From assembly GCA_024734495.1 (NCBI GenBank), contig JALMQS010000153.1, forward strand, positions 13,854,299 to 13,918,298: a stretch of DNA of 64,000 nucleotides. Direction: 5' to 3'. This document shows positions 5,301 through 39,597 of this stretch, piece after piece (positions within the stretch are counted from its first letter, which is position 1; each line of letters starts with the position of its first letter). This DNA is from Forficula auricularia (Eukaryota; Arthropoda; Insecta; Dermaptera; Forficulidae). The notes beneath the pieces were generated by a model. It did no database searches and was not told the origin of the DNA. It saw only the letters and a list, made by a program, of their open reading frames with translations. The position numbers and the translations under genes were made by a program.

Positions 5301-5588
5301 GATACAATTTTGATGGCTGTATATGTATATAATTAAGTAATGGAGAGGGATTCAGCCAATGGGTAGCGTCTGCTGAATAAAAACTCCCAATTATGGAAAA
5401 CGTTTCGGCTTTAATTAAATGATGCCATCATCAGTTCCTAAGAATTGATGAGTCTTTGAAGACGAGCGCCATATTTGTGTATAAGGTGTCCGAGCATGAT
5501 GATATTCCACAATGGTTATAAAGTTGATACAATTTTGATGGCTGTATATGTATATAATTAAGTAATGGAGAGGGATTCAGCCAATGGG
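5301..5588 (-). mobile_element. Hammerhead-bearing retroelement, 1.28-unit head-to-tail copy
   Basis: A 63-bp segment at 5301-5363 is repeated exactly in direct orientation at 5526-5588, so the insert is a 225-bp unit plus 63 bp of the next unit. It is bracketed by a 14-bp target-site duplication, TTTATAGAGTGGTT, at 5287-5300 and 5589-5602, inside an older MITE. One hammerhead motif lies on the minus strand. Known context: retrozymes and Penelope-like elements insert tandem hammerhead-containing copies with variable target duplications. Inference: this is a small nonautonomous member of that group. Confidence 0.75.
5395..5438 (-). ncRNA. Hammerhead ribozyme motif, intact core
   Basis: On the minus strand the order is GGAA, CTGATGA, one T, helix II GGC/GCC with a 14-base loop, GAAA, CGT, T, TTCC. 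Helix I is GGAA/TTCC. Helix III is the self-complementary ACGU, so pairing would be two base pairs, or a dimer. The predicted cleavage is after the T that precedes TTCC. Confidence 0.8.
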
Positions 5589-5649
5589 TTTATAGAGTGG
5601 TTACGAGTCTAAAACTTTTTGTGTGAATTGTCGCGAAAGAACCTCATTA

Positions 5650-6453
5650 AAAACTACTTTGGGATGAGAATCAAAACGTTGTTTTATATGATGATTTATT
5701 AAAAGAATAAATAAATAAATAAAATAAAATAATTGACAAAAAGACATTTTTTTTATCTTCAGACAAGTCAAAAAATTTGGATTCCAAGAAACCCCTCTAT
5801 GGGAATAAATATGTACGGAATTCATTAATAAATTAATTTCTAGTCAAAGTTTCTTAAAAATCCATTTTATTCACTTCATCACTGAAATTCAGCTTATTTC
5901 CCCTAAATCTTAAGACCAAGTTTTTTGAAAATTACATTCTACCCCAGAATGAAAAAATACTTAATTCATACCTTTTAAAAGATAATGAACAAAACAATTC
6001 ACTGGTCATATTTTATGAATGATGGCACAATACCTATTTAAATACTGACAGGTCCCTGAATTCTTGGAAAGAAGAGATCTTTCAGAGCCTGGGACGGAGC
6101 CGCTTATGAACCCGAGTCAAAGGATTTTAAGTTAATAGGATTCTAGAAAGAAAATTTCAATCTCATGATACTCAAAGGTATTCAAATAACCTAAATGATG
6201 AATGACCATTTAAGACAGTAAGTATATGTAAATTTAAACATTCAGCTAATTTTATTTATGATTTCATAATTAGAATTATCTATTCCTGGTAAAGTAGTTA
6301 AAATCCTAGAGAATTATTTCTGATGTTTAAATTACTAAAACAAAAGAATCAATTCGATTTTTAGATCTGAAATTCTTGGTTCAAAAATGCAGAAAATCAG
6401 AAAAAATTTGGTCCACAATTCTGTATTCATAAATTAAAAAATTAAAACTTGAT
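5650..6453. other. AT-rich sequence, nothing recognised
   Basis: No gene, RNA or element end could be supported in this stretch. Confidence 0.5.
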
Positions 6454-6665
6454 TATGCCAAGTTTTAAATTTCTATTCTGTTCGTTCACTGATGAAAATT
6501 TGAAAAATCTAGTAAAACCAAATCGAGTCTAGTTCAATCTAGGAGGAACAAAACTCTGTTATGCCAAGTTTTAAATTTCTATTCTGTTCGTTCACTGACG
6601 AAAATTTGAAAAATCACTTAAAACTGAATCGAGTCTATTTCAATCTAGGAGGAACAAAACTCTGA
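6454..6665. repeat. Two tandem units of about 106 bp
   Basis: The unit starting TATGCCAAGTTTTAAATTTC at 6454 repeats at 6560 with few changes, and each copy ends GGAGGAACAAAACTCTG. Confidence 0.75.
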
Positions 6666-7701
6666 CTTAATGTTTGTCCCCAACAAATTAATCGTTAACA
6701 TTTAAATTGAATATATTTCTTGCTTTCATATTTCCGTGAAAATTCTTTGATTACTTACTTTAATTCGGCACTAGAATAAAACGCAGTTAAATATGGTGTT
6801 GGTTTAACTTTTACATACTGAACTCAAGTATACATATTTATAAATCCCCTGCAGCAGCTTTACAATTGCAATATCTCATTAAAAAAACTCGGCCAACAAA
6901 GGTAACGAATCCGTAAAGACAAATAGAGAAATAATTTATACCTTTATATATCTACATTAATACGGAAAGATCTAATCTGAACAAAATGGTTCTTTGTATA
7001 GTTCAAGTGTTATTTATCGTGCAATTTGTGGTTAAAAAAAGAATCTTAAGTAATAGATAGAGGATCTGTTCTGCTCGATGTTGTCCATTCACTGAACATA
7101 TTTTGATAAATTAATAAAAGCCATATTATACTCTATATTAGAAGTAAGCTTCCACATTCAACTTGAAATGAATGTGTCACGCAAGAAACACACTGCGTGA
7201 ATTGGTTCACCTATTCTTTAGCCGATATTTTAGATCCATCCCTTCCTACTTTCCGTTTAGGGCAGTTAATTGTTTACAAAATATACAAGAGGAATATCCT
7301 AATTATTGTAATTTTAAGATCGACCCCAAGATAACTCAACGTGCCAGACCTCACAAAGCCCAAAGAAAATAATACTTGAAAATATTGACCATGACTGATT
7401 CCTAACAGTAAAGGGCAATCGCTCACTAACATTTTATACTGATTTGCTTCTTGTCATGTTATCCCACATATATCACATGTTTCTTCCCCTGAAAATCCCC
7501 ATCCACTTTCTGTCCACCCTCCGTTTGACCCGCTTTTATAAAAGCAATACAACTAGACTATTGATATACTATTATCGTTTGAATCAATTCGGTGAAAACT
7601 TCTAAGCCTTTGATGAAAGTTTATGTGTATTATTGATGATAATGTTAAGAATAAAAAAAATAATTGAAGCAATTTCCTCATGAGCAATCATGAAGCTGAT
7701 A
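6666..7701. other. AT-rich sequence, nothing recognised
   Basis: The 66-codon ORF at 7172 has no recognisable domain. No repeat ends were seen. Confidence 0.5.
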
Positions 7702-7709
7702 CCTTAAAC

Positions 7710-8116
7710 CAGAGGTCTTCAAACTTTTTCACGATCAGTGCACCAAATTTTCAGTAAAAGTTCTCCGATGCACATGAAAGTAACATTTTCAGTATATTTA
7801 GAATTTACATAATACATGTAATACCGCTTAATTATCTAATCATTAGATTAGATTCTAATGATTTTTTTATTATATATCCCTAGTAGCACAATGTTTCAAA
7901 CTATATAGTAACTATACAGTGCCTATATAGATTCTGAAAATATAGATAATATAGATTTTCAGAATCTATATAGGCACTGTATAGTTACTATATGGTTTGA
8001 AACATTGTGCTACTAGGGTAGCTTTTTTGATTTATGTAACATTTTTTTTAATAATGTGACTACATCGTCGCGGTGCACCTGAAAGTTCTCCGCGATGCAT
8101 AGTTTGAAGATACCTG
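7710..8116. mobile_element. hAT-like MITE with 8-bp target duplication
   Basis: The left end CAGAGGTCTTCAAACTTTTT pairs with the right end AGTTTGAAGATACCTG. The flanks CCTTAAAC (7702-7709) and CCCTAAAC (8117-8124) form an 8-bp target duplication with one mismatch. Internal GGTGCACCTGAAAGTTCTCC echoes the left side TGCACCAAATTTTC in inverted form. It carries a nested hairpin at 7878-8018. Confidence 0.75.
7878..8018. repeat. Near-perfect hairpin MITE nested in a hAT element
   Basis: The arms begin CCCTAGTAGCACAATGTTTC and close with GAAACATTGTGCTACTAGGG. They are nearly identical over about 65 bp with a very short loop, so the insertion is recent. Target-site bases are ambiguous (TA is possible). 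Confidence 0.7.
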
Positions 8117-8124
8117 CCCTAAAC

Positions 8125-9147
8125 AACTGATATCTTTTTGATGAGACTATTTATATTTTTGTTTACTAGGTTCGTTTGGAAGAATCTAGATCTCTCAGGG
8201 TTTGAGTACAGACTCGGAATTGACAGTTTTTTTCCCCAATCTCAAATTTGAGAAACGATATTTGATAATAATCCTGTTCTTAAAATTTCTGCGTTCATCT
8301 CTTTCAACTCTTATCCCATTCATCAAACATAGTATATTTCATTGAAAATATGCCTTTAATGAAGAAATATAAACGAAATTTCATATGGCAGACCAGCCCC
8401 TGGAAATGTTTAGTTTTACTGATTTCATCGCTCTTTTAGGAATCATTAAGAGAAAAAAAAATTAAAGGAGACCTTAAATAGGTTCAATCACTCTGCATGT
8501 GAACAAATTAAAATTAATAAAAATAATAGTTTGTAGTAGCAAACAACATTCTGTCAAGTTTTAAGCGAAGAGAACGTCGAAATAGTTACGGGATTTAGTC
8601 ATTAGAAGTAAAACAAATTAAGTCAAGAAAATCTAAAAAGAAATTAAATCTAGAATTTCAAAATATAATAGAGTTTATTCAGAACTAAAAATTATAATGT
8701 TATTCATTAATTAACTTTAGAAAAATGCTGAAGACCTATGCAGCTATATAGCCTGATGCATTAGTATGAAATTTGAACTATAATAAAGGTAGAGAGAAAG
8801 AAATAAGAGGTGCCATAGGAAAATGTTATAAATTAAATGACTAAATTGGATAATTAATTAGTAAGTTCTCAATTAGATTAGGGAAACGAGAACTTTTTGT
8901 ATAAGAATTTGGAGAACAAAAGTGCTTAGGCTTAGATGATGAGATACATCCTGAAACTCAATTATGGAGAATGAGTAAACTCGAAAAAAGAAGAAATGGG
9001 GAAAGACCTAGATTAGAATATTTTCCTCATTTATGGACGTCGTGTTATCAAAGTACATATATTCAATATTGCTATTTACAGTCTAGTATGATCGAAATAA
9101 CTTTTGAAACATATTTTACGAGCATAAAAATATAGGAAATAATTTTA
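8125..9147. other. AT-rich sequence, nothing recognised
   Basis: No gene or element ends could be supported here. Confidence 0.5.
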
Positions 9148-9210
9148 ATTAATAAAGTAAAGGGTGTATAGTTTCACAGTGAATGAAATAAAACTCAAAA
9201 AGGTTTATAC

Positions 9211-9253
9211 AAACTCAATATATTTCGGATTATTAGTCCATCATCAGGAGTTT
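9211..9253 (-). ncRNA. Hammerhead ribozyme motif, intact core
   Basis: On the minus strand the order is AAACTC, CTGATGA, T, GGA-loop-TCC, GAAA, TATAT, T, GAGTTT. Helix I is a perfect 6-bp AAACTC/GAGTTT. Helix II is 3 bp with a 7-base loop. Helix III is the palindrome AUAUAU. Confidence 0.8.
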
Positions 9254-9865
9254 ACAAGTTAAAACTAATAACAATTGAACGAGTGATCACAATTTTTAAC
9301 ATCTAAATCACATGTACCAATATAACAAAATATAACATTCAAATCTTACATACAACATAACATAAGAAAAACATCAATAAAATTAAAATTTAGAAAATTG
9401 TTTTACAAAGATTTTTCTTTTTTAAATATAAAAATATATAAATATATATATAATAAATCTAGGTAAATATTAATATAAATAAAAACCCTTAATTACAAGT
9501 ATAAACATAAAATCTTTTAGAATTAAATTAGAAAATAAAATTACAAATTTAAGTCATAGACACAAAATTAATTATAGTTTGTAATTTTATTTTCTAATTT
9601 AATTCTAAAAGATTTTATGTTTATACTTGTAATTAAGGGTTTTTATTTATATTAATATTTACCTAGATTTCTTATATTTATATATTTTTTATATTTAAAA
9701 AAGAAAAATCTCTGTAAAACAATTTTTTAAATTTTAATTTTATTGATGTTTTTCTTGTTATGTTGGTATGTAAGATTTGAATGTTATATTTTGTTATATT
9801 GGTACATATGATTTAGATGTTAAAAATTGTGATCACTCGTTCAATTATTATTAGTTTTAACTTGT

Positions 9866-9909
9866 AAACTCCTGATGATGAGACTAATAATCCGAAATAT
9901 ATTGAGTTT
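9866..9909 (+). ncRNA. Hammerhead ribozyme motif, weakened helix II
   Basis: This is the right-arm partner of the motif at 9211. CTGATGA, GAAA and the 6-bp helix I (AAACTC/GAGTTT) are kept, but helix II reads GAGA against TCC instead of GGA/TCC. Confidence 0.65.
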
Positions 9910-9979
9910 GTATAAACCTCTTTGAGTTTTATTTCATTCACTGTGAAACTACACACACCTTTACTTTATTAATTAATAT

Positions 9980-10508
9980 CATGTTTCACCTAAAACCTCA
10001 ACCACTTTCCCTAAGTAAAATAATTTTCAGGATTCATGAGTTTTTATCATTACTTATTAGCTTATTACCAAAATATCATAAAAAAATATACAAATATAAA
10101 AATTGGACTCACTCAAGTTTATAGAACATTTATTTTATTTAATATAATTTACCATTGAAAAATAAATTAAAAATCAAAAAGTATGTTTGAAAAATCTTCT
10201 AGATTTAAATAATAACACTCATTTAGTTTGAAATCAAACTATTTCGTCTGAAGATCCTCTAGAGACAAGTTTTGACTAATTTTGGGATCTCAATCCATGA
10301 AATCTTTCTACTCATCTTATTACTTCTTTTTTGTTCAGAGAGAATAGTATGTAGATTCTAGGTGAAACATATTTAATAAATTTATATTTTTTAAATTTTG
10401 ATTTTACTTATTACTTTTGATGACTTAAAATAAAAATTGTCTAATCATAAGATTACCAAAAAATATAAACACGGAGGGATGTTTAAAACTAAAAATATAT
10501 AAATCTAT
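9980..10508. other. AT-rich sequence, nothing recognised
   Basis: No gene or element ends could be supported. Confidence 0.5.
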
Positions 10509-12889: not shown

Positions 12890-13440
12890 ATTAATTAATA
12901 AAGTAAAGGGTGTGTAGTTTCACAGTGAATGAAATAAAACTGAAAGTGGTTTATACAAACTCACTATATTTCGGATTATTAGTTCTATCATCAGGAGTTT
13001 ACAGGTTAAAACTAATAATAATTGAACGAGCGATCACAATTTTTAACATCTAAATCATACGTACCATTATAACAAACTATAACATTCAAATCATACATAC
13101 CAATATAACACAAGAAAATCATCAATAAAATTAAAATTAAAAAAAAATTTTTTACAAAAATTTTCTTTTTAAATATAAAAATATATAAATATAAATATAA
13201 AAATCTATGTAAATATGAATATTAATATAAATAAAAAACCTTTAATTACAAGTATAAATATAAAAAATTTTAGAATTAAATTAGAAAATAAAATTACAAA
13301 TTTAAGTCATAGACACAAAATTAATTATAAATATCAATGTACAAATAAGCATAAATTACATATAGAGATAAAGATTAAAATAAAACATAATAGAGATAAA
13401 TTAGATGAGATAAAAAAAAAATCATTTAAGAAAGACTAAA
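12890..13440 (-). mobile_element. Single-arm copy of the 9.1-kb fold-back family
   Basis: The segment matches the left arm of 9148-9574 from TTAATTAATAAAGTAAAG onward and extends about 110 bp further at its inner end (past AATTAATTATAAATATC). The extension shows sequence that the 9.1-kb palindrome lost at its junction. The 74-codon Lys/Asn-rich ORF inside it is a composition artefact. Confidence 0.65.
12957..13000 (-). ncRNA. Hammerhead ribozyme motif, helix III changed
   Basis: Helix I (AAACTC/GAGTTT), CTGATGA and GAAA are present. Helix III reads ATATAG rather than ATATAT, so the closing A-U pair is lost, and helix II is weaker (AGA against TCC). Confidence 0.55.
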
Positions 13441-14122: not shown

Positions 14123-14496
14123 ATATATAAAAATTCTGCTACTCTCGGCAAAAACTTTCAATTTAATTCATGTGTTTATTTTCTGATTTTTTTCATTTTT
14201 GTACCCTTAGTTATAAAACTAAAAGCCCAAAATCGAGTCACTTAATCGACGTAGAAAAATAACATTTTAAAGAAAGATAGAAAAAATATTCATTTATTGA
14301 ATTATTTGTTCATTTTTAAAATAATAATGAAGTGAAAACATATACTCCGTTTAATCTGTATTAGTTGATGGTAGTATTCCGTAATAATATAAATGAAATA
14401 TAAATTATATTAGTCAAATAATATCTTTAGATTTTGGTGATTTGGCAATTTTTTGTCACCGAATGGTTTGAGCTATAATCTGCGGCCTAGAGGCGC

Positions 14497-14856
14497 CAGG
14501 TAAAATTCTCCCAAGTGTGCTAGAGGGTCTAAGGGCTAGTTGTATGTCGGTTGGTAAACACTTTTTAAACGTTGACAAAGGGTAAAACCTTAAAATTCAC
14601 CTTGGCCGGGTGGGATGGCCAATCAGATGAAAATACCTGTCATCTGATTGGCCATCCCACCCGGCACAATGTGAATTTTAAGGTTTTACACTTTGTCAAC
14701 GTTTAAAAATGGCAGGCACTTTCATCTGATTGACCATCCCACCCGGCACAAGATGAATTTTAAGGTTTTACCCTTTGCCAACGTTTAAAAAGAATTTACC
14801 AACCGACATACAACTGGCCCTTAGACCCTCTAGCACCCTTGGGAGAATTTTACCTG
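14497..14856. mobile_element. Harbinger-like palindrome with duplicated right arm
   Basis: The outer inverted repeat starts CAGGTAAAATTCTCCC and encloses the family's GGGCTAGTTGTATGTCGG end. The right-arm segment (GGCCATCCCACCCGGCACAA and following bases) is present twice, and the left arm once. The palindrome extends about 38 bp outside the usual family end. Confidence 0.65.
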
Positions 14857-16225
14857 TCGTCTCTAATAACTATTGAGTATTTTCATCAACTTTGACTTCC
14901 CTATAAATTCAGCGTCCCTGGACGATCCCCCCAAAGACCAGCACTGGCTTTAATCCTGCAACTTTGGTGCAGCTAATATTATTTTTTTATGCCAAGTTTC
15001 AGCTCATTAACTACAACGACTCAAGAGCTAGAGCTATTCGAGTTATTTTTTCGAAATTTCTACATTTTACAATTACAAGTTCAAAAACAACTTTCTAATC
15101 TTGAGTTTTCGAGGGTATCGAAATCCAGCCTGGCAGATACGGACAGAAAAAAAAAAATTATGCTTGAAAATCTCTACGTTTTAGACATTTCTAAGAACGA
15201 ATAAATAAATAATAATTGAAAAGAAAAATTTTATTCTCGCTTAACATAGCAAAAAGCGAAACCCTTCTCTCCAAAATCAAATTCTAGAACCGCGAGAAAA
15301 AATTTGTTTTCAATGGTTAAATTCATTTAATATTATTATACAATCTACATTAATATTTCTTAAATAGGAACAATCGATTCAAAGATAAAAAATAAATTAT
15401 TTAAAATTATCTATAAATTTGCTTAAATTTACATATACCCTTATCTGAATAATTTTTAGTTGTACTTACTAACGTTTATTACATTTTTTTCTTTAAATAT
15501 TTCGAGGTTAACCTTAAGATTTATAAATATATACCGATGTCCTTGAAGATTATTTCTATCGTATATATATGTATTAAATGTTATTCTTTTATAGATGAAA
15601 TTTTGCATTTTAAGTCAAATTACTTAATAAGTATTACCAAATAATATCCAACGTTAGTAAAAGTTTCTTTTGTTCGAGTGAATTTTGATCGGTGTCAATT
15701 ATTTAATTAATAATGAATAAAAAAAATTATTTTTTTCTTTTTTGACCTTCTAATGAAAATTTGAAGATAATATTAAATATCTAGATTTGAATATTTTTTC
15801 ATGGCCATATTATGAGAATAATAATTTTGAATCGAAATAGGCGAACTTGAATTAATAAATGGAAAATTGAATTCGTTCCCAATTTGATGCAGACCCATGA
15901 CGTAGTATTTATCATCATTTTAGAGGGTGCACCATGAAATATATAAAACAATTTTTGAGTTAAAATAAATTGGTATAATAAATATTCTATTATTAAATGT
16001 TGATGTGCTGGAAGATTCTTTCGGGTGGATATTGTAAAATTAGAAAAGAGATTAAAATTTTGTAAATACTTGGAAAATTTAACCAATTTTCTAATTTTAT
16101 CATTAACGTAAAAAAATTCATAAAAAATCTTCTAGTTTATAACCTTAGTAAAAAGCATAATAATTGAGCTCGGGGGATGTTTTCAGCAAATTATGATAAA
16201 AAGACAGAAGGTGAATTTAGGTTGG
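14857..16225. other. AT-rich sequence, nothing recognised
   Basis: Short ORFs at 14989 and 15799 have no recognisable domain. No element ends were found. Confidence 0.5.
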
Positions 16226-16564
16226 AAAAATCGCAATTTTTTCTTCATAATGAAAAACCACTCATTCTAGAAACTTGATTCTCATCTGATTCTCTAGGAA
16301 ATTTTGTTGACTTGAACGTTTACTTTAAACGATTTTTTGATAAAATTCTTATATTTATAGATATCCAGCATTTTCCATGACAGAAAATGATCCGAATTCT
16401 CAGAAGTGTCATGGAAAATGCTGGATATCTATAAATCTAAGAATTTTATCAAAAAGTTGTCCAAATAAACGTTCAAGTCAACAAAATTTCCTAGAGAATG
16501 AGATAGGAATCAAGTTTCTAGAATGAGTGGTTTTCATTTTATGAAGGAAAAATTGCGATTTTTT
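16226..16564. repeat. Fold-back, arms about 150 bp
   Basis: The outer ends AAAAATCGCAATTTTTTC and GAAAAATTGCGATTTTTT pair, and the inner ends TTTCCATGACA and TGTCATGGAAA close on a loop of about 25 bp. The arms are nearly identical, so the copy is fairly young. It is joined on the right to non-palindromic repeat-like DNA. Confidence 0.7.
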
Positions 16565-17702: not shown

Positions 17703-18112
17703 ATACATACTGATTTGGAGGGAATATTAAATTTCAAGTCATCGAAAGATAACAAAAGAATTAATTCTAAACATCCTAATTATTAAAAAATTTTCGTCGA
17801 TATTATTTTTTAATTATCAACAATTTAAATGCAGAAGGTCATAGATTTTAAAACATATTAAAGAAGATCTTTTATTTTTTTAATGCTTAGTTTATATAAG
17901 GAGTATCATTTGATTAATGTTAAAGGTAGGCTGTATGTTTAGTTGACTATCTTTCAGGCGAAAAGGGTGAATATAAATAAAACTTTGTTCAACTGGCTTA
18001 TTATTCGCAAGAAAGAAAAAGCGACATTACTTTAAAAATTATATAAAGAAATTTTGTAACAGGAATAGCAGGGAATTGGACAAAAATTAAAAACATAGAG
18101 TTTTTATTAAAT

Positions 18113-18156
18113 GGACCAGACGTTTCGTCAATTTATTTTGACTTCCTCAGTGTCCC
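18113..18156 (-). ncRNA. Hammerhead ribozyme motif, intact core
   Basis: On the minus strand the order is GGGACA, CTGAGGA, A, GTCAA-loop-TTGAC, GAAA, CGT, C, TGGTCC. Helix II is a perfect 5 bp. Helix I pairs at five of six positions, including one G-U. Helix III is ACGU. The host unit is otherwise unrecognisable. Confidence 0.75.
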
Positions 18157-22391: not shown

Positions 22392-22407
22392 TATATTTAT
22401 TTATTTG

Positions 22408-22786: not shown

Positions 22787-22791
<5 letters not shown>

Positions 22792-26974: not shown

Positions 26975-27216
26975 ACTACCCCGTATGGAAATAAATAGAT
27001 TTTCGAAATATGTTTATTCTATATTTTTTGAAAATATAAATAAATATATTAAAAATAAAAAAGTTTATACTAGAGTGACCTAAAAATAATTATATTTTAA
27101 GAATATATAGAAAACATAAACTTTATATAAATTTAACATAAAAATTTTATATTTTTAATATATTTTCAAAAAATATATAAACAACATATTTCGAAAATCT
27201 ATTTATTTCCATGCGG
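26975..27216. repeat. Inverted repeat inside the array
   Basis: GGAAATAAATAGATTTTCGA at the left is mirrored by TCGAAAATCTATTTATTTCC at the right. The right flank keeps CTGAGGA of a hammerhead (27226-27232 on the minus strand), but its GAAA box is missing. Confidence 0.6.
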
Positions 27217-27490
27217 GACGGCACCGCTTCCTCAGTGGAAACTTCGTAATCAGACATATTTTAAGGTACTCAGTACCCTTTATTATTTTTTCAAAGGAGA
27301 ATGAATAAAATTCGATTGCTTCTTTCAGTAATTTTTTTATTAATTCAACTGGTTAATCCATTCGATAGCACTACGGCACCTCAAATTGTAAGGTACTCAC
27401 CCACCAACTCAGTACCTTACAATTTTAACATTTGTAATTAGCAAGCAATTAATGCATTGTGAACCTACTAACTCGCAGTTGCCTGATTCC

Positions 27491-27530
27491 GCAGAGGAAG
27501 AGGTGCCGTAGTGCTGTCGAAATATCTAAA
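27491..27530 (+). ncRNA. Hammerhead remnant (core CAGAGGA)
   Basis: It has the same layout as 29084-29126, but the core reads CAGAGGA (conserved U changed to A). Helix II is GAG against GTC, and GAAA plus ATAT are kept. It is presumed inactive. Confidence 0.5.
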
Positions 27531-28416
27531 TTATCCCTTTGAATTAATAAAAAATTGCTGGAAATAAGTAATTGAATTTTATTTATTCTTCATTAAAAAA
27601 TTAGCATACACCAAGCCATTTAAATTTCATGTTATTTATCTAAATGAAGATTACCCTAACTAACGATTACAATAAAGTGTACTTTTACAGTAGAAAAAGT
27701 CTGGTTAGTGGCCATTTAATATTAGAAAAGTTTTTTTCCCAACTGAAAGCGAAAGTAAGGGTTTGAGTAAACTTTTACAAGAGATATAATATTTGCTTCC
27801 TTGTGGCGTTGCCTCGGTCTTTATACTGTGATTGGTGGCTTCGACTTCTATGAAAATTGGTGGCTTCGACTTCTATGAAAATTAGTGGCTTCGACTTCTA
27901 TGAAAATTTTATCAATATATAATTTTTTTTTATTTTCAGTCACAAATACCTTAATGCCGTGATTTCGCTAAACAAAATTAACTAAACAAAAAGACCAATA
28001 TTTCTACATAAAACAATATAAATATGAATGGTGGCTTCGACTTCTATTAAAATTTTATCAATATATCATTTTTTTATTTTCAGTCACAAATACCCTTAAT
28101 GCCGTGATTTCGCTTAACAAAATTAACTAAACAAAAAAGACCAATATTTCTACATAAAACAATATAAAAATTATTATTATATTATATTATTTTTTAAAGG
28201 AGAATAGAATAAAATTCTATTAGCTTCTTTCCAGTAATTTTTTATTAATTCAATTGATTAAACCAGATATTTCGAGAGCACTAAAGCAGCTCTTCCTGCG
28301 AAATCAGACAAATTGTAAAGTACTCACCCACCAACTCAGTACCTTACAATTTTAGCATCTGTAATTAGCAAGCAACTAATGCCTTGTGAACCTTCCAACT
28401 CGCCGTTATCTCAATT

Positions 28417-28459
28417 TCCACTGAGGAAGAGGTGCCGCAGTAATCTCGAAATATCTGGA
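28417..28459 (+). ncRNA. Hammerhead ribozyme motif, intact core
   Basis: The order is TCCA, CTGAGGA, A, GAG-loop-CTC, GAAA, TAT, C, TGGA. Helix I is TCCA/TGGA and helix III the palindrome AUAU. The matching left arm (about 28258-28300) has lost part of the core. Confidence 0.75.
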
Positions 28460-29083
28460 TTATCCTCTCAAATTAATAAAAAATTACTGGAAAGAAGTAA
28501 TTTAATTTATTCTTCATTAAAAAATTAACATACACCAAGCCATTTAAATTTCATATTATTTATATAAATGACAATTACCCTAACTAACGATTACAATAAA
28601 GTGTACTTTTACAGTAGAAAAAGTCTGGTTAGTTGCCATTTAATATTAGAAAAAGTTTTTTCCCAAATGTAAGCGAAAGTGAGGGTGTGAGTAAACTTTT
28701 ACAAGAGATATAATATTTGCTTCCTTGTGGCGTTGCCTCTGTCTTTATACTGTGATTGGTGGGGCTTCGACTTCTATGAACATTTTATCAATATATCATT
28801 TTTTTTTTTCAGTCACAAAAACCTTAATGCCGTGATTTCTCTAAATAAAATTAACTAAACAAAAAGACCAATATTTCTAAATAAAACAATATAAAAATTA
28901 TTATTATATTATTTTTTAAAGAAGGAGAATGAATAAAATTCTATTGCTTCTTTCCAGTAATTTTTATTAATTCAGACAAATTGTAAAAGTACTCACCCAC
29001 CAACTTAGTACTTTTACAATTTCAATATCTGTAATTAGCAAGCAATTAATGCTACTAACTGGCCACTGTCTGATTCCGCAGTT

Positions 29084-29126
29084 TTCACTGAGGAAGAGGT
29101 GCCGTAGTGCTCTCGAAATATCTGAA
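29084..29126 (+). ncRNA. Hammerhead ribozyme motif, intact core
   Basis: The order is TTCA, CTGAGGA, A, GAGG-loop-TCTC, GAAA, TAT, C, TGAA. Helix I is TTCA/TGAA, which differs from the 28417 copy by a compensated pair. It lies about 300 bp upstream of the GC-rich block. Confidence 0.75.
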
Positions 29127-29425
29127 TTATCCTCTTGAATTAATAAAAAATTACCGGAAAGAAGTAATTGAATTTTATTTATTTATCCTCATTTAAAAAA
29201 TTAACATAACTATCGAGTATACCCCAATCCATTTAAATTTCACTATTATTTATCTAAATGATGATTACTCTAACTAACGATTACAATAAGAGTGTACTTT
29301 TACAGTAGAAAAAGTCCGGTTAGTGGCCATTTAATATTAGAAAAGTTTTTTTCCCAACTGAAAGCGAAAGTGAGGGTGTGAGTAAACTTTTGCAAAGGAT
29401 ATGATATTTGCTTCCTTGTGGCGTT

Positions 29426-30527: not shown

Positions 30528-32654
30528 GTAAGTACCTTATTCATAACATATCGCACGAACGAAAGTGAAATTATCCATTGTGTTTTTTGTTGTTTTTTTT
30601 TATTATTTTTTTTTTTATCCTAGGGGTGGTTTTGCTCCATCACTCTCAGCATCACTCGGGGTCAAATGAAAGTGAAAACGAGCTCGTTTTCCCTTTTCGC
30701 TTGCGATTTCTATCCTGAAAATCGGATAACCTCTTTAAACAAGGGATGAACCGAGGGAAATTACTCAGCCATCTTGTGAATTCGCGACCATTATTATTTT
30801 TTTTTTTTTTACTTGATACGTCACGCCATTTTTGCTACAAAAAATCAATTTCATCTTCAATTATTCAAACCACTTTCACTATCTACGGCGCGTTTTGCGC
30901 TTATAAAAAGCGTCTTTATTGACAAAATAGAGTGTTTTATTGGATATTTTGACAGGATTGGAGTTATTTAAACGGTGTTTTGACATAAGATAATTGTGTA
31001 ATATGCGAAATGAAGAAATATAAGTAAGTAAATGCGCACGGAAATAATTTTTTTTCTTGGTAATTAAAAAAATAGTTTTTTAATTTTAATTTTTTTTTCA
31101 CAATCATAATGTAATATATATTTATTTTTTATATTTATTTACTTTTTTAATTATACTTTTTTTGAAATTAATAGATTTTTTTTAAATAATTTTTTTTTTT
31201 TTTTTGTGATATTTTCTTAATTTTATTTTTTTTTATTTTATTTTTTTTATTTTAATTGGAGTAATATAAAAAATAAATAAAATAAATTAAGAGAATTTGA
31301 AATATTTTTAATTTTTGTTTTTATGATTTCTTTTTTCTTTTTTTGTAAACTTTTAATACTGATTGTTAAATTTTTTTTACCTATATTAGTTGATCACAAT
31401 AATGACTTATAAACTATTTTTTTATATATATATATATAAAAGTAAAAGTATTTTTTTCTAATTAAGTATGTTTTGATATTCCTATATTTTGATTTGATAA
31501 ATATTTACTATTTGTAAAGGTATCTTCAAATTAAAATTAAGACACCAAACCCTAAAGATTTATTTTTCTATTAAAAGAACATAATAGAAAATGGACGGAT
31601 TTTTTGCTTGTATTTATATTTCTAATTATTAAATAATTTCATTTATGAAATTACAATTTTTTATAAACGGCCCTGATTATGAATCAGAATATATGTATTT
31701 CTCTCAATAAAATTAAATAGAAAATGGACGTATTTTTATTTATTTATTTTATTTTATTTATTTTTTTTTTTTGTATTTTCTTTTTCTTAACTTTTAACAA
31801 TAATAATTGTAAGAGTATTTACAATTATGGAATTAGAATGTTTGTTCAAGGAACTAAACTAAAACTAGTTTTTCTTGCAATTAAAAAATAGAAAATAGAT
31901 GAATTTTCTATCCAAATTTGAATAATTATACATTTAAATAATTAGATTAATTAATAGGATCAAAACCCTGATGATCTAATAAAAAACAATTATTTTTCTA
32001 TTAAAAAAAAAGATGAAAGTATTTTTTTCAAAATATTTTTTTCTTATATTTAATTTTTACCAATGTAATGAAATTTGTGTTTTATAAAAGACATGACTAT
32101 AAATCGCAAATGGTTTATTTCTATTAAAAATATAAAAAAATAGACGCTTTTTCTTCAAAATATTATATATTTAATTTCGATTTTGTAAAGTTATATTTAA
32201 ACAAGTACTTATGTTTCAATATCATCTTCCACCGGATTCATCATTTAAGTAATTTTTATGATTGATCAAAACTTGCTTAATAAATTTATTTTTCTATTTC
32301 AAAAATAAAAAATAAAATGGACGTGTTTTTCTTTCAAAGATTTTTTTCATTAATTTTTTCTATCGTGGCGTTAATTCGTTCATTTTGTTTACTTTTCCTC
32401 TCGTATTTTATATTTTTGTTTTCCTCTGTTGACTTTCACTTTCAGCATATTTTTCTCTAGCTAAATAAAAAAATAAAAAAAAAGTAAAATTATGAGAGCA
32501 TGCGTGTTGCATCGCTTTGTTATTTATAACTCTCCTGTTTTATTGATTGGTCCAGATTTGCCAAGGGCCACCCCCGCCCGCCCCTTTTTGTCACAAGGAG
32601 CCGAGATGTTGTCCGATGATGAATTTGATGTGGATTTTTGTTGGCCCTGTGTTC
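30528..32654. other. Candidate 5' intron, AT-rich
   Basis: The stretch holds long T- and A-rich runs between about 31020 and 32400. GAAAGTGAAA-like motifs appear at 30563 and 30666. A possible acceptor, GTGTTCCAG, ends at 32656, just before the start-codon exon. No other exon could be supported. Confidence 0.4.
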
Positions 32655-32676
32655 CAGCTGGCCTCCAGCCCTCGGC

Positions 32677-32862
32677 ATGGACGAAACGCAGCATTTTTGT
32701 CTGCGCTGGAACAACTATCAATCCTCGATCACCTCAGCATTCGAGAACCTCCGCGACGATGAGGACTTCGTGGACGTGACCATAGCCTGTGATGGAAGAA
32801 GTCTTAAGGCCCACCGCGTAGTCCTCTCGGCATGCAGTCCATATTTTCGCGAACTACTCAAG
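32677..32862 (+). CDS. br: Broad (BR-C), coding exon 1: first half of BTB domain
   Basis: This exon encodes 62 residues starting [20 protein letters not shown] and ending YFRELLK. The N terminus and the [16 protein letters not shown] block are those of Broad-Complex proteins, as distinct from Lola, Tramtrack, Fruitless or Abrupt. Broad is an ecdysone-induced nuclear transcription factor controlling metamorphic and wing programmes; the BTB domain mediates dimerisation. The chosen ATG (GGCATGG) matches the family start. An in-frame ATG 13 codons upstream lies before or across a likely acceptor and is not used. The exon ends in phase 0 at AAG|GTATCG, the known split of BTB in this family. Downstream translation into the intron is spurious. 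Confidence 0.88.
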
Positions 32863-33100: not shown

Positions 33101-33186
33101 CCTCTACTTATAAATAAATATATTAATTTGAAGGTTTATAATAGGAAAATAAGGACAAGTTTTTACGTGTGACATTTTTATTTATC

Positions 33187-33225
33187 AACCAACGTTTCGT
33201 CGACTTTGCCGACTTCTTCAGGGCT
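33187..33225 (-). ncRNA. Hammerhead ribozyme motif, intact core
   Basis: On the minus strand the order is AGCC, CTGAAGA, A, GTCG-loop-CGAC, GAAA, CGT, T, GGTT. Helix I has four pairs including G-U. Helix II is 4 bp and helix III ACGU. Confidence 0.78.
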
Positions 33226-33596
33226 TCAAATAGTCATGTCACACATCCGTCTAAATTTTCTTGTTATCTTCGTTACCATTGAAGACCATCAGAACACAAA
33301 TTTAAAACAATATTTGGCACATTCACAAAAACAATTTTTCTTTTTTTTCTTTTTATATTAACAATTTCATTAGATATAAAACAGAAATAACATATATAGA
33401 ATGAGGCAATACTGTTTTTAAAACCAGAATAGAATATTTTTCTCCTTTTGATCGTGACATAAAGAAATTTCAAATTCAAATAACACTAAATTTATACTGT
33501 CTTACAATTTTTCTCCTCTACTTATAAATATATTAATTTGACAGTTTATATTAGGAAAATAAGGACAAGTTTTTATGTGTGACTTTTTTATTTATC

Positions 33597-33635
33597 AACC
33601 AACGTTTCGTCGACTTTGCCGACTTGTTCAGGGCT
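33597..33635 (-). ncRNA. Hammerhead motif with mutated core base
   Basis: It is identical in layout to the motif at 33187, but the core reads CTGAACA: the conserved G of CUGANGA is C. That guanine takes part in catalysis in hammerheads, so this copy is predicted inactive. Confidence 0.65.
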
Positions 33636-34052
33636 TCAAATAGTCATGTCTAAATTTTCTTGTTATCTTCGTTACCATTGAAGACCATCAGAACACAAAT
33701 TTCAAAAAATATTTGGCACATTCACAAAAACAATTTTTCTTTCTTTTCTTTTTATATTAACAATCTCATTAGAAATAAAACAGAAATAACATATATAGAA
33801 TGAGGCAATACTGTTTTTAAAACCAGAATAGAAAATTTTTCTCCTTTTGATCCTTACATAAAGAAATCTCAAATTCATATAACACTAAATTTATACTGTC
33901 TTACAATTTTTCTACTATATTAAAATATATGTCAATGACACTAGCCAAGTTATAATTAAATGAAAAAAAAATTATTATTATTTTTTATTGTTAAGGATAA
34001 ATAAATTGAATTGCTTCTTTCCAGTAATTTATTTTGTTATTCAAATGGTTAA

Positions 34053-34096
34053 TCCAAATATTTCGAGAGCGTTCTCGGCATCTCTTCCTCAGTGGA
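34053..34096 (-). ncRNA. Hammerhead ribozyme motif, intact core
   Basis: On the minus strand the order is TCCA, CTGAGGA, A, GAGA...TCTC (extended by TGC against GCG-type pairs), GAAA, TAT, T, TGGA. Helix I is TCCA/TGGA and helix III AUAU. Confidence 0.78.
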
Positions 34097-34189
34097 AACT
34101 GTGGGACCACACATTAGGCAAGTCAGTGACCTTTTGACACCTGTAATTATAATAACTCACTGACTTGCCTATTGTGTGGTCCCACAGTT

Positions 34190-34233
34190 TCCACTGAGGA
34201 AGAGATGCCGAGAGCGCTCTCGAAATATTTGGA
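34190..34233 (+). ncRNA. Hammerhead ribozyme motif, intact core
   Basis: This is the mirror partner of 34053-34096. It has CTGAGGA, helix II GAGA/UCUC plus UGC/GCG with one bulge, GAAA, AUAU and helix I TCCA/TGGA. Confidence 0.78.
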
Positions 34234-34306
34234 TTAACCATTTGAATAACAAAATAAATTACTGGAAAGAAGCAATTCAATTTATTTATCCTTAACAATA
34301 AAAAAA

Positions 34307-35416
34307 TTAATATATCCAGTACACACCAAGCCAGCAAAATTCTTATAAAAATTCTTATATTATATTATTTTCCTAATATAAACTTTCAAATTAATACAAA
34401 TTATGTTTCGACGGCTTTTCCATCAGGTTAAGTCCGTTCCTATAAACGATTTTTAATTGTGTTTGAATTAATAAAAAAACGCTCATAACTTACAAAATAC
34501 TTAAAATTTCAAAATCATTTTTATTTGTCATTTTTTCGGATATATTTTTTTTTACTTTTTTAATTTAAGGTAAGTGTTTTTACGAAATATTTTTGGTATA
34601 AAAATCGTCTAAAAATGATCTTCCATTACATCTTCATTTTAAGAAAATATTTTTTTTTAATCCGACGCTATTGGGTTTGATAATATATTATTTTCAATAA
34701 TATCTTACATTCCGGGATATTTTGGACCACGAAAAATTCGAATATCTTCAAAATAAACCCCTAAAATTTTAAAATAATTTTTGATTTTGATTTCAATTAT
34801 TATTATTACACTTGTAAATTTCAAGATTCCATATGTACATTTTATTTATTTATTTATTGTTAATGGAGAATGGTGTAGGTCCTTGGTGAAACATTTTAAA
34901 TAAAGTAAAGAAAATTTTAAAAAGTTTTCTAAAAAAAATTTCAAAAATTTTCTTTACTTTAGGTATATTTTATTTAGTCTTTGAGCTACAATATTCTGAC
35001 AGAAGGACATACAAACAGACAAATATTACCATCACAATAATAGGATTAACTTTTTACAAACCTTTAACATGAATATTTATTTGGATCATATATTTTGATT
35101 TATTTCTTAAAAATTAAACAATTCGGCAAATATTTTTGATTAATTTTTTAACAACAATTTTTTCTTAATGTTTTATTTTATACGATTCAAATATTTATTT
35201 ATTTATTTTAATAAAAAATTAATCTTCTAATTAATTCTAAAGAATTTGGACAAATAATAAAACTATTAAATGAGCGTTCATTCAATTATTTTTTAAAATT
35301 TCGTCAGTTCTCTTAGATTTTTTATTATTTATTTATTTATTTTGTATTTAATTATAATGTAAACTTGGTAATAATTCAGATGTATTTTCTTTTTCTCTCA
35401 TGATCTCTATGATTAG
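34307..35416. other. br intron 1, AT-rich remainder
   Basis: A short inverted stretch (AAAGTAAAGAAAATTTT and AAATTTTCTTTACTTT) lies near 34910-34962. The splice acceptor ends at 35416 (CTATGATTAG). Nothing else was recognised. Confidence 0.5.
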
Positions 35417-35614
35417 AGTACACCGTGTAAACATCCAGTAATCGTTCTACAAGATGTAGCATTCGCTGATCTTCATGCGCTTGTTGAGTTTATCTACCAC
35501 GGAGAAGTAAACGTCCACCAACGTAACTTAAATTCGTTCCTGAAGACTGCTGAAGTGCTTCGAGTAAGTGGCTTAACACAACAACATGCCTCGGAGCCGC
35601 CCGATCGTGATGAG
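35417..35614 (+). CDS. br: Broad, coding exon 2: second half of BTB domain
   Basis: This exon encodes 66 residues in phase 0, from [16 protein letters not shown] through [16 protein letters not shown] and [16 protein letters not shown] to EPPDRDE. It completes the BTB fold, including the FIYHGEVNV strand-helix region typical of the TTK-type BTB group. The wording STPCKHPVI...VHQ...LRVSGLTQQ is that of Broad. The acceptor is TTAG|AGT and the donor GAG|GTACC. Reading on past the donor gives unrelated residues, so the longer ORF to 35803 is not used. Confidence 0.88.
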
Positions 35615-36263
35615 GTACCTACCGCATTTATTTTACAACCTTCTCTAGTTTTCTTTTTTTCTACTGATATGAAATATTTAGAAGAGTTAGGCTACCTTTG
35701 GAGAAATCAGAAAATTAATACAAATTTTCTAAAGCTCCGATATTTAATCTTTATATCATTCTCAAGCGATTACAGATATAATTTTGACATTAGTATTCAA
35801 TGATTTGCGTAAAATCTGAAACCTTGTTGCATTTAATTTTCTAATTACACCATAGTGGTTTAACCTGAAAGAATCTACCAGATCAAATATTTCCTAGACA
35901 AAAAAAAAAATGGAAGAAGACATGCGATAAAAATACTATACCTACATAAAAACAAGTTTTCAGAACAAGAATTGAAAATTCTTATTATTTTTCATATTAA
36001 AAACTCATTGTGAAATTGTGAATACTCCAATAAAATAAAGCAATTTAACAGGCCCAAGTAATTCAAAAAGATGAAATTATTACCTACCCCTAAAACTTTG
36101 GATATAAAAAATAATAAAAAAAATTAAAAAACATAAAGTAAAAGTGTCTAATTATTCTCAGTGTAAAAATAACGTTTTGATTCCCACTTACAAATCCATT
36201 TCGAAGTTTTTTTAATTCATATTTTATTATTGAACTATTTTATTTTAATTTAATTTTGAGTTT
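35615..36263. other. br intron 2, first part
   Basis: AT-rich sequence without recognised features. Confidence 0.5.
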
Positions 36264-36417
36264 TGGGGTCGGGTTGGGCTAGGGGTTGGCGTACCAGCCT
36301 GCTAACCAAGTGGACCCGGGAGGGATCCAGCTGGGTAGAAACAAATTAAAAATAATAATAATAATAAATATCGTAAATTGGCTTATGACTAGAAAGGCCG
36401 AAAAGCCAAAAAAAAAA
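36264..36417 (+). mobile_element. SINE-1 with damaged B box
   Basis: GGTCGGGTTGGGCTAGGGGT and GCCTGCTAACCAAGTGGACC match the head. The B box region is shortened to CCCGGGAGGGATCCAG. The tail GGCCGAAAAGCC plus poly-A is kept, with TTGAGTTT flanking both sides. Confidence 0.7.
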
Positions 36418-36571
36418 TTGAGTTTAAGAAAGATACTCAGCTATTCTTATATAGTCTTAAAAAGCTTCTATTAGGCGGAATGTGGAGGGGTAATCACTCC
36501 AAATAAATTTTTAGAAAACAACTTTTTTCATTGTTAAAGAATATTTGAAAAAAAATCATTTTATTTTTTTT

Positions 36572-37050
36572 TTAAGGTAATTTTTTCACAAATGCAAAAA
36601 TTCAAGAAGTTTTTGAAACTTGGAATATAAGTCATTAAAATAATAATACACATACTGTTAAAATTTGAAGACGATTTACCACACCGAACATAAAATAATT
36701 GCAATTAAAAATGGCATTTTTAACATAGAATAGATAGGGAAAAGGTGGGGATATGATCATTATTTTTTTTTTCATTGAAGGACTTTCACCATCTTGATGA
36801 AAAACTAATATTTGTAGAATAATATATTCGGAGTAACATAAAAAAAAAAATTGAAATTATTTACCACGTAGTTTTGATAAAAAAACAAAAAAAACATATT
36901 TGGGCGATTATTTTTAGTGGAGGGGATATAAGCATGAGTGGACAGTCACGTTAAAAAAACATAACCTAAAATTTTAGTTCCGTTCATATTTATAGAGTGG
37001 TTACGAGGCTAAAACTTTTTTTGTGGATTGTCGCGAAAGAACCTCCTTAA
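36572..37050. mobile_element. TTAA-type (piggyBac-like) MITE, family 1
   Basis: It is bounded by TTAA at 36572 and 37047. The left end GGTAATTTTTTCACAAATGC and right end TCGCGAAAGAACCTCC match the family. Confidence 0.75.
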
Positions 37051-37860
37051 ATGAACAAAAAGAGACAAAGTGGGGTCTAAAATCTACCCCCCCCCTCCCT
37101 CCCCTACGAAAAAACATTTCAACTAGATTTATAGTGAACCATTTGATATTTTATTAAAGATAAAAGTAAATGAATATTTTTTGAAATATTAATTTACTGT
37201 AAGTTAGGTTTTCTAGGTCACTTGTTTCACGTTAAAAATTAAAAAAAATAAAAGTGGTAAATTTTTTCAATATATATATTTCTGGCTATCAACCGATCTT
37301 CAGGAAGTACAGAAAATAAAAAAATATTTTGTTGGTAAAATAATAAGCTACAATTTCGGTCAGAACCAAAATTAATAAAAATGATCAATAAGTTAAATCA
37401 AATCAAATTGAAGGGGTATATAGTATCTGATTTTAATTAAAAATTTCCCTAATTTATTGATTAGTTTAATTTTAATTAACAATTTGATTCTTTGATAAAT
37501 GAATTGATTTGTTTAGAAATCTCCATAGTATGATTAAATATTTATAATTATTTTTGTCAACCTTTGAAAAGATAATTATTTTCAATCATTCATTCATTTT
37601 ACTTAATAACAATCCACAAGTGAAAAGATATTTAATTAAATTAGTTTTTTAATTTGAAATGGGTATCCATCAATTTGAAAATCTTATTAATTTTTGATGG
37701 GGGGATAAATTAAATGTATCTTCCGGAATCCAAAAAAGAATTTTAAAAAATTTCCGTGTCTATGTACTTATATGTAATTAATTTTCCGGCTAGACCGACG
37801 AACAAAAAATAATCCCGAGCTTTTAAATTTTAAGTTTATTTTGCTAAAAAGTAAAATGAG
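37051..37860. other. br intron 2, AT-rich with a decayed hammerhead
   Basis: A C-rich run lies at about 37089-37105. A hammerhead-like motif is listed separately. Nothing else could be recognised. Confidence 0.45.
37266..37306 (-). ncRNA. Hammerhead-like motif, weak helix II
   Basis: On the minus strand TTC, CTGAAGA, T, CGG...GCC, A, GAAA, a TA-palindrome (ATATATATAT), T and GAA are present. Helix I has three pairs and helix II two to three with a mismatch next to GAAA. Confidence 0.45.
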
Positions 37861-38215: not shown

Positions 38216-38343
38216 AAATAAAAAAATGCTTCACTTTGTTTTTAATATTTTTAAATTATGGTCCTACTTAATTATATACCTACTTTTTGTAATTTCGCTA
38301 TAATAATTTCAGAAAATAAAGTTTTGAGTATCCTAGACCAAAT

Positions 38344-38476
38344 AATTAATTAATAATTTAGATAGTTTAATCTATCTATCTTTCAATTATTATTCAATGA
38401 AAAAAATATAAATATGAGTAGCTGAAAGATAGGTAGATTAAACTATCTAATATTATCTAAATTATTAATTAATTAT
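38344..38476. repeat. Hairpin with about 50-bp arms
   Basis: GATAGTTTAATCTATCTATC is mirrored by GATAGGTAGATTAAACTATC, and the outer AATTAATTAATAATTTAGAT is mirrored as well. Confidence 0.7.
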
Positions 38477-38649
38477 TTATATCTAGAATGTTCAATATAT
38501 ATACTATATATTATCAATTACCAAATTAAATAGTTTTCTAAAAATCAAAATTCTTTAAAAAAAAAATACAAGGTCTACGAAAAAGTTTATAATGATAAAC
38601 GACGTAAAAATTATTTTCCAAAAAAAAATTAAAAATTAACTCTTTATTC

Positions 38650-38901
38650 ATTTTTGGAGTGTCGGGTTAGGCTAAGGGTAGCGTGCCAGCCTGCTAACCA
38701 AGAGCACCCGGGTTCGAATCCGACTCGAGGCATCCGGCCAAAATCTGACCCCGGGGTAGAGACAAATTAAAAAATAATATTTTTTAAAATTATAAATTGT
38801 GGTGTTTTTTGAGGCTCAAAAAACAGCACAATTTATAAAAAATAATAATAATATATAGTATCGTAAATTGTCTTATGGCTAGAAAGGCCGAAAAGCTAAA
38901 A
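38650..38901 (+). mobile_element. SINE-1 with internal hairpin insert
   Basis: The head (GTTAGGCTAAGGGTAGCGTG, then GGGTTCGAATCCGACTCG) and tail GGCTTATGGC...AAAGCT are clear. A hairpin (ATAAATTGTGGTGTTTTTTG mirrored by CAAAAAACAGCACAATTTAT-like sequence, 38789-38840) splits the body. The target duplication is ACTCTTTATT. Confidence 0.75.
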
Positions 38902-39404
38902 AAACTCTTTATTATTTAAAAAGGCTTATTTTTGAAGCAAAAAATCATCCACGATTCATTTTCTAATGTAAATTCGTCTCTTACTGGGGACCATTTTATT
39001 TTTATGTAATTTAGTTATTGTTTAGTCAAAATTTTATTAAATATCACTGTCAAATATTTATATTAGAGTGAAGATAAATCAAGATCACTGAAACGTTAGT
39101 CTCAGATATTAAGCAGAAGACACATTTAACTTTTTGTTATAAATTAAAAACTCGACTACTCTGGCAGAATCACATTTTAATTTTTTATGAGACAAATTTA
39201 AAAAAAAATAATAAATAGTATCGTAAATTGGCTTATGGCTAGAAAGGACGAAAAGCCAAAAAAAAACTCATTATTTAAAAAGGCTTATTAGTTGAATAAA
39301 AGATTTCACTGTCGATGGTAACAGAATTGTTTTTATTTTAGGTTAAAAAATAAAATGAGAGATGGAGTCTTCTGTTTTTAAATAAAATAATTTTTAATTA
39401 TTTC

Positions 39405-39447
39405 TAAAGACTATAGTTTCGAAGGCATTGCCTTCATCATCAGTCTA
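39405..39447 (-). ncRNA. Hammerhead ribozyme motif, intact core
   Basis: On the minus strand the order is TAGA, CTGATGA, T, GAAGGC-AAT-GCCTTC, GAAA, CTATAGT, C, TTTA. Helix II is a perfect 6 bp with a tight loop. Helix III is the palindrome ACUAUAGU. Helix I has one G-U. Confidence 0.82.
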
Positions 39448-39554
39448 TCACAAATATTTCAGTATTTAGTTACATTCAAATTAAGATTTATACATTGAAA
39501 AATATTGAAAAATATAATGTTTTTTTCATATACTGAATACTGAAATATTTGTGA

Positions 39555-39597
39555 TAGACTGATGATGAAGGCAATGCCTTCGAAACTATAGTCTCTA
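39555..39597 (+). ncRNA. Hammerhead ribozyme motif, intact core
   Basis: This is the mirror partner of 39405-39447. Helix I is TAGA/TCTA, helix II GAAGGC/GCCTTC and helix III ACUAUAGU. It is the best-formed motif in the window. Confidence 0.85.

Follow-up and report, generated by a model that had tools for sequence, protein, structure and literature searches.

In the 64,000-nucleotide stretch of Forficula auricularia DNA analysed here (the window), the introns of an insect BTB gene contain ribozyme-bearing mobile elements from at least six unrelated families, which we read as non-autonomous elements that were mobilised by Penelope-like elements (PLEs) and landed in this gene. Just two exons of the host gene are confirmed, both on the plus strand: one at 32629–32820 for the first part of the BTB domain (PF00651, E 3.3e-4; no PDB relative) and one at 35417–35620 for a later part (PF00651, E 7.3e-10). 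The hammerhead-bearing units are short (about 150 to 430 nt) and non-coding. A Pfam scan covered 10 open reading frame (ORF) pieces, from the 21 ORFs of at least 60 amino acids that lie close to the elements (the window has 139 in all; the core region of the F7 element was not selected), and found no reverse transcriptase (RT) or GIY-YIG domain in these 10.

The motifs are hammerheads of a minimal type and occur far above chance. A pattern scan of the whole window for the core CTGANGA..GAAA gives 25 matches at 22 distinct starts against 3.2 expected, and none of 100 shuffled windows reaches 25 matches (maximum 9). A strict structural scan requires at least three pairs in helix II, at least two in helix III including A15.1–U16.1, at least three in helix I, and a cleavage position (H17) other than G; it yields 10 matches in the window, compared with a mean of 0.010 and a maximum of 2 in 1500 dinucleotide shuffles. 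An earlier note on this DNA had listed about ten motifs with a hammerhead core and intact helices. The full core is indeed present at 10 of 10 listed sites, nine of which are among the 10 strict matches, and the shuffle check that it had suggested also favours the motifs (about 0.01 strict matches per shuffled window). The remaining listed site, 18113 (minus), is missed by the strict scan because the third helix I pair is mismatched; it keeps the full core, helix II and the palindromic ACGT.

The type I features are all seen, namely the CUGANGA and GAAA core, helices I and II, and a cleavable UH, with cleavage predicted after H17. In 9 of 9 strict motifs among the listed sites, helix III is a loopless palindrome (ACGT, ATAT, ATATAT or ACTATAGT), and in all of these motifs A9 is followed by one extra base before helix II, a feature that the earlier note did not mention. 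Covariation is found at seven of eight helix pairs; the score is 0.839, whereas slid structures reach no more than 0.25. Single-strand folding forms helices I and II together in five of seven motifs, often with added competing pairs in the core. The Rfam hammerhead models, which the earlier note had proposed as a check, have no match in the window at gathering scores or at E up to 10, nor in 39330–39672 searched alone, probably because helix III is missing and the extra base is present. A covariance model made from seven of the motifs gives 26 matches when E values up to 10 are admitted. Seven are its building motifs; eight are relatives outside the training set (33593, 27484, 28258, 39551, 27177, 39401, 9211 and 9861; E 1e-8 to 0.05, with 9211 and 9861 poorly aligned); two lie in F7 (E 0.013 and 0.11); and nine are taken as chance, including 43295 (E 6e-4) and 47174 (E 0.008). 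This model missed two core-bearing copies, at 12994 and 22441 (both minus).

Several candidates were rejected. The site at 47214 (minus) passes the strict scan (model E 0.008), but it lacks the extra base, has a 14-nt helix II loop and has no relative in the window, and was discarded as weak. At 62920 (plus), inside a 1.1-kb palindrome, the core is present and helix II is absent; 43295 (plus) lacks the core despite its E value; and the repeats at 6489 and 6595, together with 37279, 40543 and 42217, have core letters without the full structure. A 30-nt AT-rich match at 25705 to the family at 18111, whose 5′ end falls at offset 0, is too weak (E 0.005). Strong matches to Rfam microRNA families fall on long inverted repeats, score below the gathering scores of those families and are not read as genes, and a tRNA gene search found none. 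A scan of viral contigs for the extra-base pattern returned at least 120 stretches, and a structural scan of the fetched loci (1,159,488 bases) gave four matches, one of which was compared with Rfam and has no match there. The scan pattern itself demanded the extra base, and these matches are therefore silent on its generality.

The units belong to at least six unrelated families, as the earlier note had claimed: a BLAST search of each unit against the window gives only short AT-rich matches between families. In place of the roughly ten decayed copies that it had counted, there are 12 relic segments of the six families beyond the listed sites and three of a newly found seventh family, F7, some of them partial. 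Two elements are direct repeats. E1 (5301–5588, minus) is a 288-bp insertion in which a 225-nt unit forms a partial direct tandem (hammerhead at 5391–5442, minus), and E5 (33101–33930, minus) is a direct dimer whose unit measures about 400–414 nt, with hammerheads at 33221 (minus) and, with G8 changed to C, in the second copy at 33631. The family with listed site 18113 is present as a single copy (18111–18158, minus; one helix I mismatch).

Elements or arrays of head-to-head palindromic form, which the earlier note did not mention, contain six of the ten listed sites (9211, 28417, 29084, 34053/34190, 39405/39555). The head-to-head palindrome E2 (9139–9982) carries a strict hammerhead at 9247 (minus) and one at 9872 (plus) that keeps the core with helix II altered; a single unit of its family, E2b (12890–13329, minus), keeps the core at 12994 (minus). 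E6 (33973–34312), a family A palindrome, has strict hammerheads at 34092 (minus) and 34194 (plus). The family A array (26880–29209), of which listed site 29084 is a member, comprises three head-to-head pairs and partial pieces, with strict hammerheads at 28421 and 29088 (both plus) and relics at 26977, 27243, 27382, 28297 and 28974 (minus) and 27487 (plus). E7 (39290–39666), a further head-to-head palindrome, has strict hammerheads at 39443 (minus) and 39559 (plus) and a 3′ extension of about 40 nt on the left arm only; relics of its family lie at 21318–21367 (minus), 22393–22441 (minus, core kept) and 52637–52716 (plus). In all four unlinked palindromes and all three pairs of the family A array, the ribozymes face outward. 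The window also contains other long palindromes that have no hammerhead.

E1 and E7 are demonstrable insertions. E1 is flanked by an exact 14-bp target duplication (5287–5300 and 5589–5602), and four sister repeats have the site uninterrupted (near 36990, 49538, 54324 and 57224). E7 likewise has an exact 14-bp duplication (39276–39289 and 39667–39680) and one uninterrupted sister site (near 38917). No clear target duplication was found at E2, E5, E6 or F7. The suggestion that the density of motifs around a single developmental gene is meaningful in itself gains no support, given these two insertions with sister sites and the occurrence of motifs on both strands.

In F7 (19890–20911), also a head-to-head palindrome, a non-palindromic stretch occupies the centre; in its two variant hammerheads, one at 20020 (minus) and one at 20780 (plus), U3–A8 stands in place of the active-site pair C3–G8. 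The count by itself cannot establish this variant: two U3–A8 motifs are observed against 0.39 expected in 150 shuffles, which is no better than the A–A control (two against 0.32), and significance on that ground was rejected. The hammerhead reading of F7 rests instead on the combination of features. Its arm contains TATATAA and TCAGTT at promoter spacing, and in a truncated copy at 58202–58289 (minus) homology begins at the first base past the predicted cleavage site, which gives only a hint of self-cleavage.

We consider it probable that these motifs are minimal type I hammerheads of the PLE type, carried by families of non-coding retroelements that are copied in trans by a PLE-type enzyme. 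A transcript would contain one or more units, and two motifs could pair via the palindromic helix III and cut as a dimer after H17, releasing unit-length, perhaps circular, RNA. The endonuclease would make a 14-bp staggered cut, and the RT would prime from the cut end; copying of a multimer or circle would give direct partial tandems (E1, E5), and if both cut ends acted as primers on two RNAs, head-to-head palindromes with outward ribozymes would result (E2, E6, E7, F7). The loopless helix III fits the helix-III-less, dimer-cutting variants described for PLEs in the available portions of two sources (PMC7761336, PMC6155905), and the partial tandem of E1, the dimer of E5 and the head-to-head structure of E7 with its one-arm tail match published PLE traits. 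The shuffle controls, the covarying helices, the exact 14-bp duplications with their sister sites, the outward-facing ribozymes and the in vitro action of a PLE protein on both target strands also speak for this reading. The layout associated with PLEs (partial tandem or head-to-head, optional 3′ tail) is present, along with target-site duplication in E1 and E7. E1 and E5 also have the form of metazoan retrozymes (non-coding direct tandems of ~150–450 bp with a type I hammerhead); the palindromic elements fall outside that layout. Counting against the PLE reading are duplications of 14 bp where 8–10 are published, the want of a clear duplication at E2, E5, E6 and F7, the lack of an Rfam match and of RT or GIY-YIG in the 10 ORFs, the competing core pairs in folding, and in vitro data: in the one PLE tested, the ribozyme is described as dispensable for insertion and as cutting only with protein, and none of the RNA reads had an end at the cut (PMC11167929, in the part available).

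The units may alternatively be pseudo-LTRs (pLTRs) left after truncation or loss of the coding part of full PLEs, and not independent families, which we regard as rather unlikely. In the available text of PMC3846280, rotifer PLEs give rise to solo pLTRs, some of which surround unrelated sequence, and to pairs of inverted pLTRs that bear a tail, a layout also seen in E7 and F7; the TATATAA and TCAGTT of the F7 arm resemble promoter motifs reported there for a pLTR. However, the direct tandems E1 and E5 are complete, being built from a non-coding unit and enclosing no internal sequence, the 10 ORFs scanned contain no piece of an RT or endonuclease, and a coding remnant is seen in none of the at least six families. 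It is very improbable that the elements are foldback DNA transposons (MITEs) whose terminal inverted repeats contain a hammerhead by accident: the hammerhead-free palindromes do indicate that foldback elements are common here, but E1 and E5 are direct, the E7 arms have differing end points, E1 and E7 have the 14-bp duplication in common, and the E2 family includes a lone arm (E2b). Duplication at the DNA level in the manner of a satellite, both tandem and inverted and with no RNA step, would suit the family A array (26.9–29.2 kb), a local tandem of head-to-head pairs with intervening sequence, yet is hardly credible as a whole: copies are dispersed, and E1 and E7 have target duplications and uninterrupted sister sites. 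Chance matching to a short consensus, which could account for the absence of Rfam matches and for lone matches such as 47214 and 62920, has a negligible probability in view of the shuffle controls and covariation; for the ten sites taken together it is already refuted.

Within the reading of PLE-mobilised families, a bolder joint proposal is tentative and, taken whole, doubtful: the head-to-head elements would be products of two-ended target-primed reverse transcription at a 14-bp staggered cut, and F7 a natural U3–A8 hammerhead that still cuts. Both 3′ overhangs would prime, on two ribozyme-bearing RNAs, with the PLE-type enzyme extending both ends in vivo as in vitro, and 58202–58289 would look as if a self-cleaved F7 product had been reverse-transcribed into the genome.

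Minimal PLE hammerhead variants were reportedly described by Cervera and de la Pena in 2014 and by Lunse et al. in 2017. The earlier note's appeal to precedent in PLEs and retrozymes is supported by comparison with such systems. As far as the accessible text of the two sources goes, the minimal PLE hammerheads (PMC7761336, PMC6155905) share with the present motifs a type I core, no proper helix III, an expected dimer cleavage and an occurrence both dispersed and in repeats; the strict motifs here differ in the extra base after A9, published ones being compared by description and not by sequence, and F7 differs in U3–A8. The ORF of the PLE PAc is said, in the portion available, to begin at stem II after G8 (PMC11167929), which would fit A9-U-G, and a PLE protein in vitro cuts and extends both target strands (same source). 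The endonuclease-containing Penelope elements of Adineta vaga (PMC3846280, available text) likewise show head-to-head repeats, partial tandems, an optional one-arm tail, target duplications and an empty site; their mobilisation in trans through pLTRs would have its counterpart here. Their duplications are 8–10 bp, some copies having none, in contrast to the 14 bp here, where no coding region was found among the ORFs scanned; the main text, in the portion available, makes no mention of hammerheads. Metazoan non-LTR retrozymes (PMC7229834, in part) are similar in their non-coding, AT-rich tandem units, size and type I hammerheads, whereas most of theirs are described as canonical with loop–loop contacts and those here are minimal, with head-to-head copies common.

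The role of PLE-type hammerheads is still called a mystery in the available part of PMC7761336. The hammerhead and PLE class is known; the crowding, the mirror-image copies and the one altered core deserve follow-up. Well-bounded insertions with uninterrupted sister sites allow direct, single and head-to-head products to be set side by side here, which makes it possible to test how priming occurs and in what order cleavage and copying take place. If F7 is active, it would be a natural experiment on the active-site C3–G8 pair.

The CTGANGA..GAAA core of the hammerhead ribozyme occurs 25 times in the window against 3.2 expected, an approximately eightfold excess. A strict scan for motifs in which each of the three helices forms and the base at the cleavage site is a permitted one, with 0 or 1 base allowed between A9 and helix II, returned 10 matches, compared with a mean of 0.010 and a maximum of 2 in 1500 dinucleotide shuffles; shuffled sequence, which the earlier note had proposed as a check, thus does not give as many. 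Nine of the 10 matches are sites that this note had described as hammerhead motifs, and its site at 18113 fails solely by a helix I mismatch. The tenth match, at 47214, was discarded as weak.

The helices are supported by covariation. When seven motifs representing four families are aligned, pairing holds in 54 of 56 cells, both sides change at 7 of 8 helix pairs, and the covariation score is 0.839 (shuffled mean, 0.227; slid structures, ≤0.25). Within family A, the family of the array at 26880–29209, the motifs at 28421 and 29088 differ by one helix I pair swapped from C-G to T-A. A covariance model built from the seven motifs gives 26 matches in the window at E up to 10, comprising the seven themselves, eight outside relatives, two in the F7 element and nine others that are taken for chance; the core-bearing copies at 12994 and 22441 are not recovered by it. 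The Rfam hammerhead families, by which the motifs were to be checked, give no match whether the gathering threshold or E up to 10 is applied, and none on a piece of 343 bases; of the two outcomes that the note had named as refuting it, missing model hits thus did occur, and shuffles with equally many hits did not. In all nine listed motifs that pass the strict scan, helix III is a loopless palindrome and A9 is separated from helix II by one additional base, and the Rfam silence is probably due to these two features.

At least six unrelated families had been claimed, and unit BLAST separates six (E1, E2, A, E5, E7, and the single site at 18111), whose mutual matches are no more than short AT-rich stretches; F7 is a seventh. 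In all there are 25 segments, some of them partial: the ten sites of the note, 12 additional relics, and three that belong to F7. E1 (5301–5588, minus strand; 288 bp) combines a 225-nt unit with a second, 63-nt stretch of the same unit, and is flanked by two copies of TTTATAGAGTGGTT (14 bp), which is present once, unbroken, in four sister copies of its host repeat. This repeat family of about 500 bp has five copies, one split by E1 (4933–5651, 36571–37061, 49080–49610, 53938–54389, and 56756–57302). E7 (39290–39666) is a palindrome with its arms head to head and is flanked by two copies of TAAAAAGGCTTATT; its target is unbroken in a sister repeat near 38917, and its left arm is about 40 nt longer than the right at the 3′ end. 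The E7 target is part of a SINE-like repeat found between the F7 arms. That repeat (20390–20570) resembles a tRNA-derived SINE (GGTTCGAATCC box, A-rich end) and has relatives at 36333–36417, 38661–38930, and 39189–39289; ARAGORN found no tRNA for it.

E5 contains two direct copies of a unit of about 400–414 nt, a dimer in which the second ribozyme is broken at G8. E2, E6 (also of family A), and F7 are head-to-head palindromes; the E2 family also has a single-unit form. The ribozymes face outward in all four unlinked palindromes and, within the array of family A, in each of its three pairs. No clear target duplication is seen in E2, E5, E6, or F7, where AT-rich ends permit several readings. Long palindromes with no convincing hammerhead lie at 1910–3100, 7878–8018, 14488–14865, 16226–16563, 41229–41576, 47248–47929, 53139–53353, and 62812–63934, and are perhaps foldback or MITE-like elements. 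A minisatellite of 20 copies of 20 bp (TTGGAAATATTTGGAAGTAC) occupies 44052–44451.

F7 has an altered core. Both arms carry TTGANAA in place of CTGANGA, so that the C3-G8 pair becomes U3-A8, and retain a 5-bp helix II, GAA, ACGT, and C17, with a helix I of four pairs in one arm and three in the other. They are matched by the seven-motif model at E 0.013 and 0.11; by count, the U3-A8 core is not significant in itself (2 vs. 0.39 expected; A-A control, 2 vs. 0.32). Homology of a truncated F7 copy (58202–58289; no target duplication seen) runs from the first base past the predicted cut to near the unit 3′ end, a single coincidence that is only suggestive. The F7 arm is the only one of 11 element stretches in which TCAGTT follows TATATAA at the spacing of a promoter.

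The precedent that had been cited for the class, in Penelope-like elements (PLEs) and retrozymes, is supported. Reviews describe the hammerheads of PLEs as type I ribozymes of a minimal form, without helix III, for which cleavage as dimers is considered possible (PMC7761336, PMC6155905). Rotifer PLEs are described as occurring in partial tandems and as inverted pseudo-LTRs placed head to head, with palindromes where the two join and in some cases a tail on one of the inverted pseudo-LTRs; an empty site, mobilisation in trans, and target duplications of 8–10 bp that some copies lack are also described (PMC3846280). Metazoan retrozymes are described as non-coding tandem units of 150–450 bp with type I hammerheads (PMC7229834). 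The ribozyme type and the occurrence of head-to-head as well as direct products are PLE-like, and the size of the non-coding units is retrozyme-like; the window joins all three. Of the 21 ORFs of at least 60 aa close to the elements (the whole window has 139), 10 were scanned with Pfam, and neither an RT nor an endonuclease domain was detected in these; the F7 core lay outside the selected regions. A hammerhead-like motif with a 5-bp helix III and one additional base after A9 is also present in a viral contig (L029, 12753–12800), with no Rfam hammerhead match.

In the mechanism that we propose, unit or multimer RNA would be cut by paired ribozymes and then copied at a staggered cut, and priming of two RNAs from both 3′ overhangs would yield the E7 layout, including its unequal 3′ ends. 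We infer cleavage, dimers, circles, and two-ended priming in these elements. One PLE protein is reported to cut and extend both target strands in vitro; the ribozyme of that PLE is described as cutting only with the protein present and as dispensable for insertion, and the account reports no RNA reads ending at the ribozyme cut (PMC11167929). For head-to-head copies in rotifers, self-priming on an antisense template is given as the authors' preferred route (PMC3846280).

E5 and E6 lie within the intron that separates two exons encoding two parts of a BTB domain, in a gene whose sequence we take to be reminiscent of Broad-Complex, a likeness on which the host is taken to be an insect. The data yield no link between the elements and what the gene does. 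Overall, the note's observation is confirmed, for a class that is already known; it gains moderate interest from the crowding within this window, from head-to-head insertions with clear bounds, and from the core of F7.
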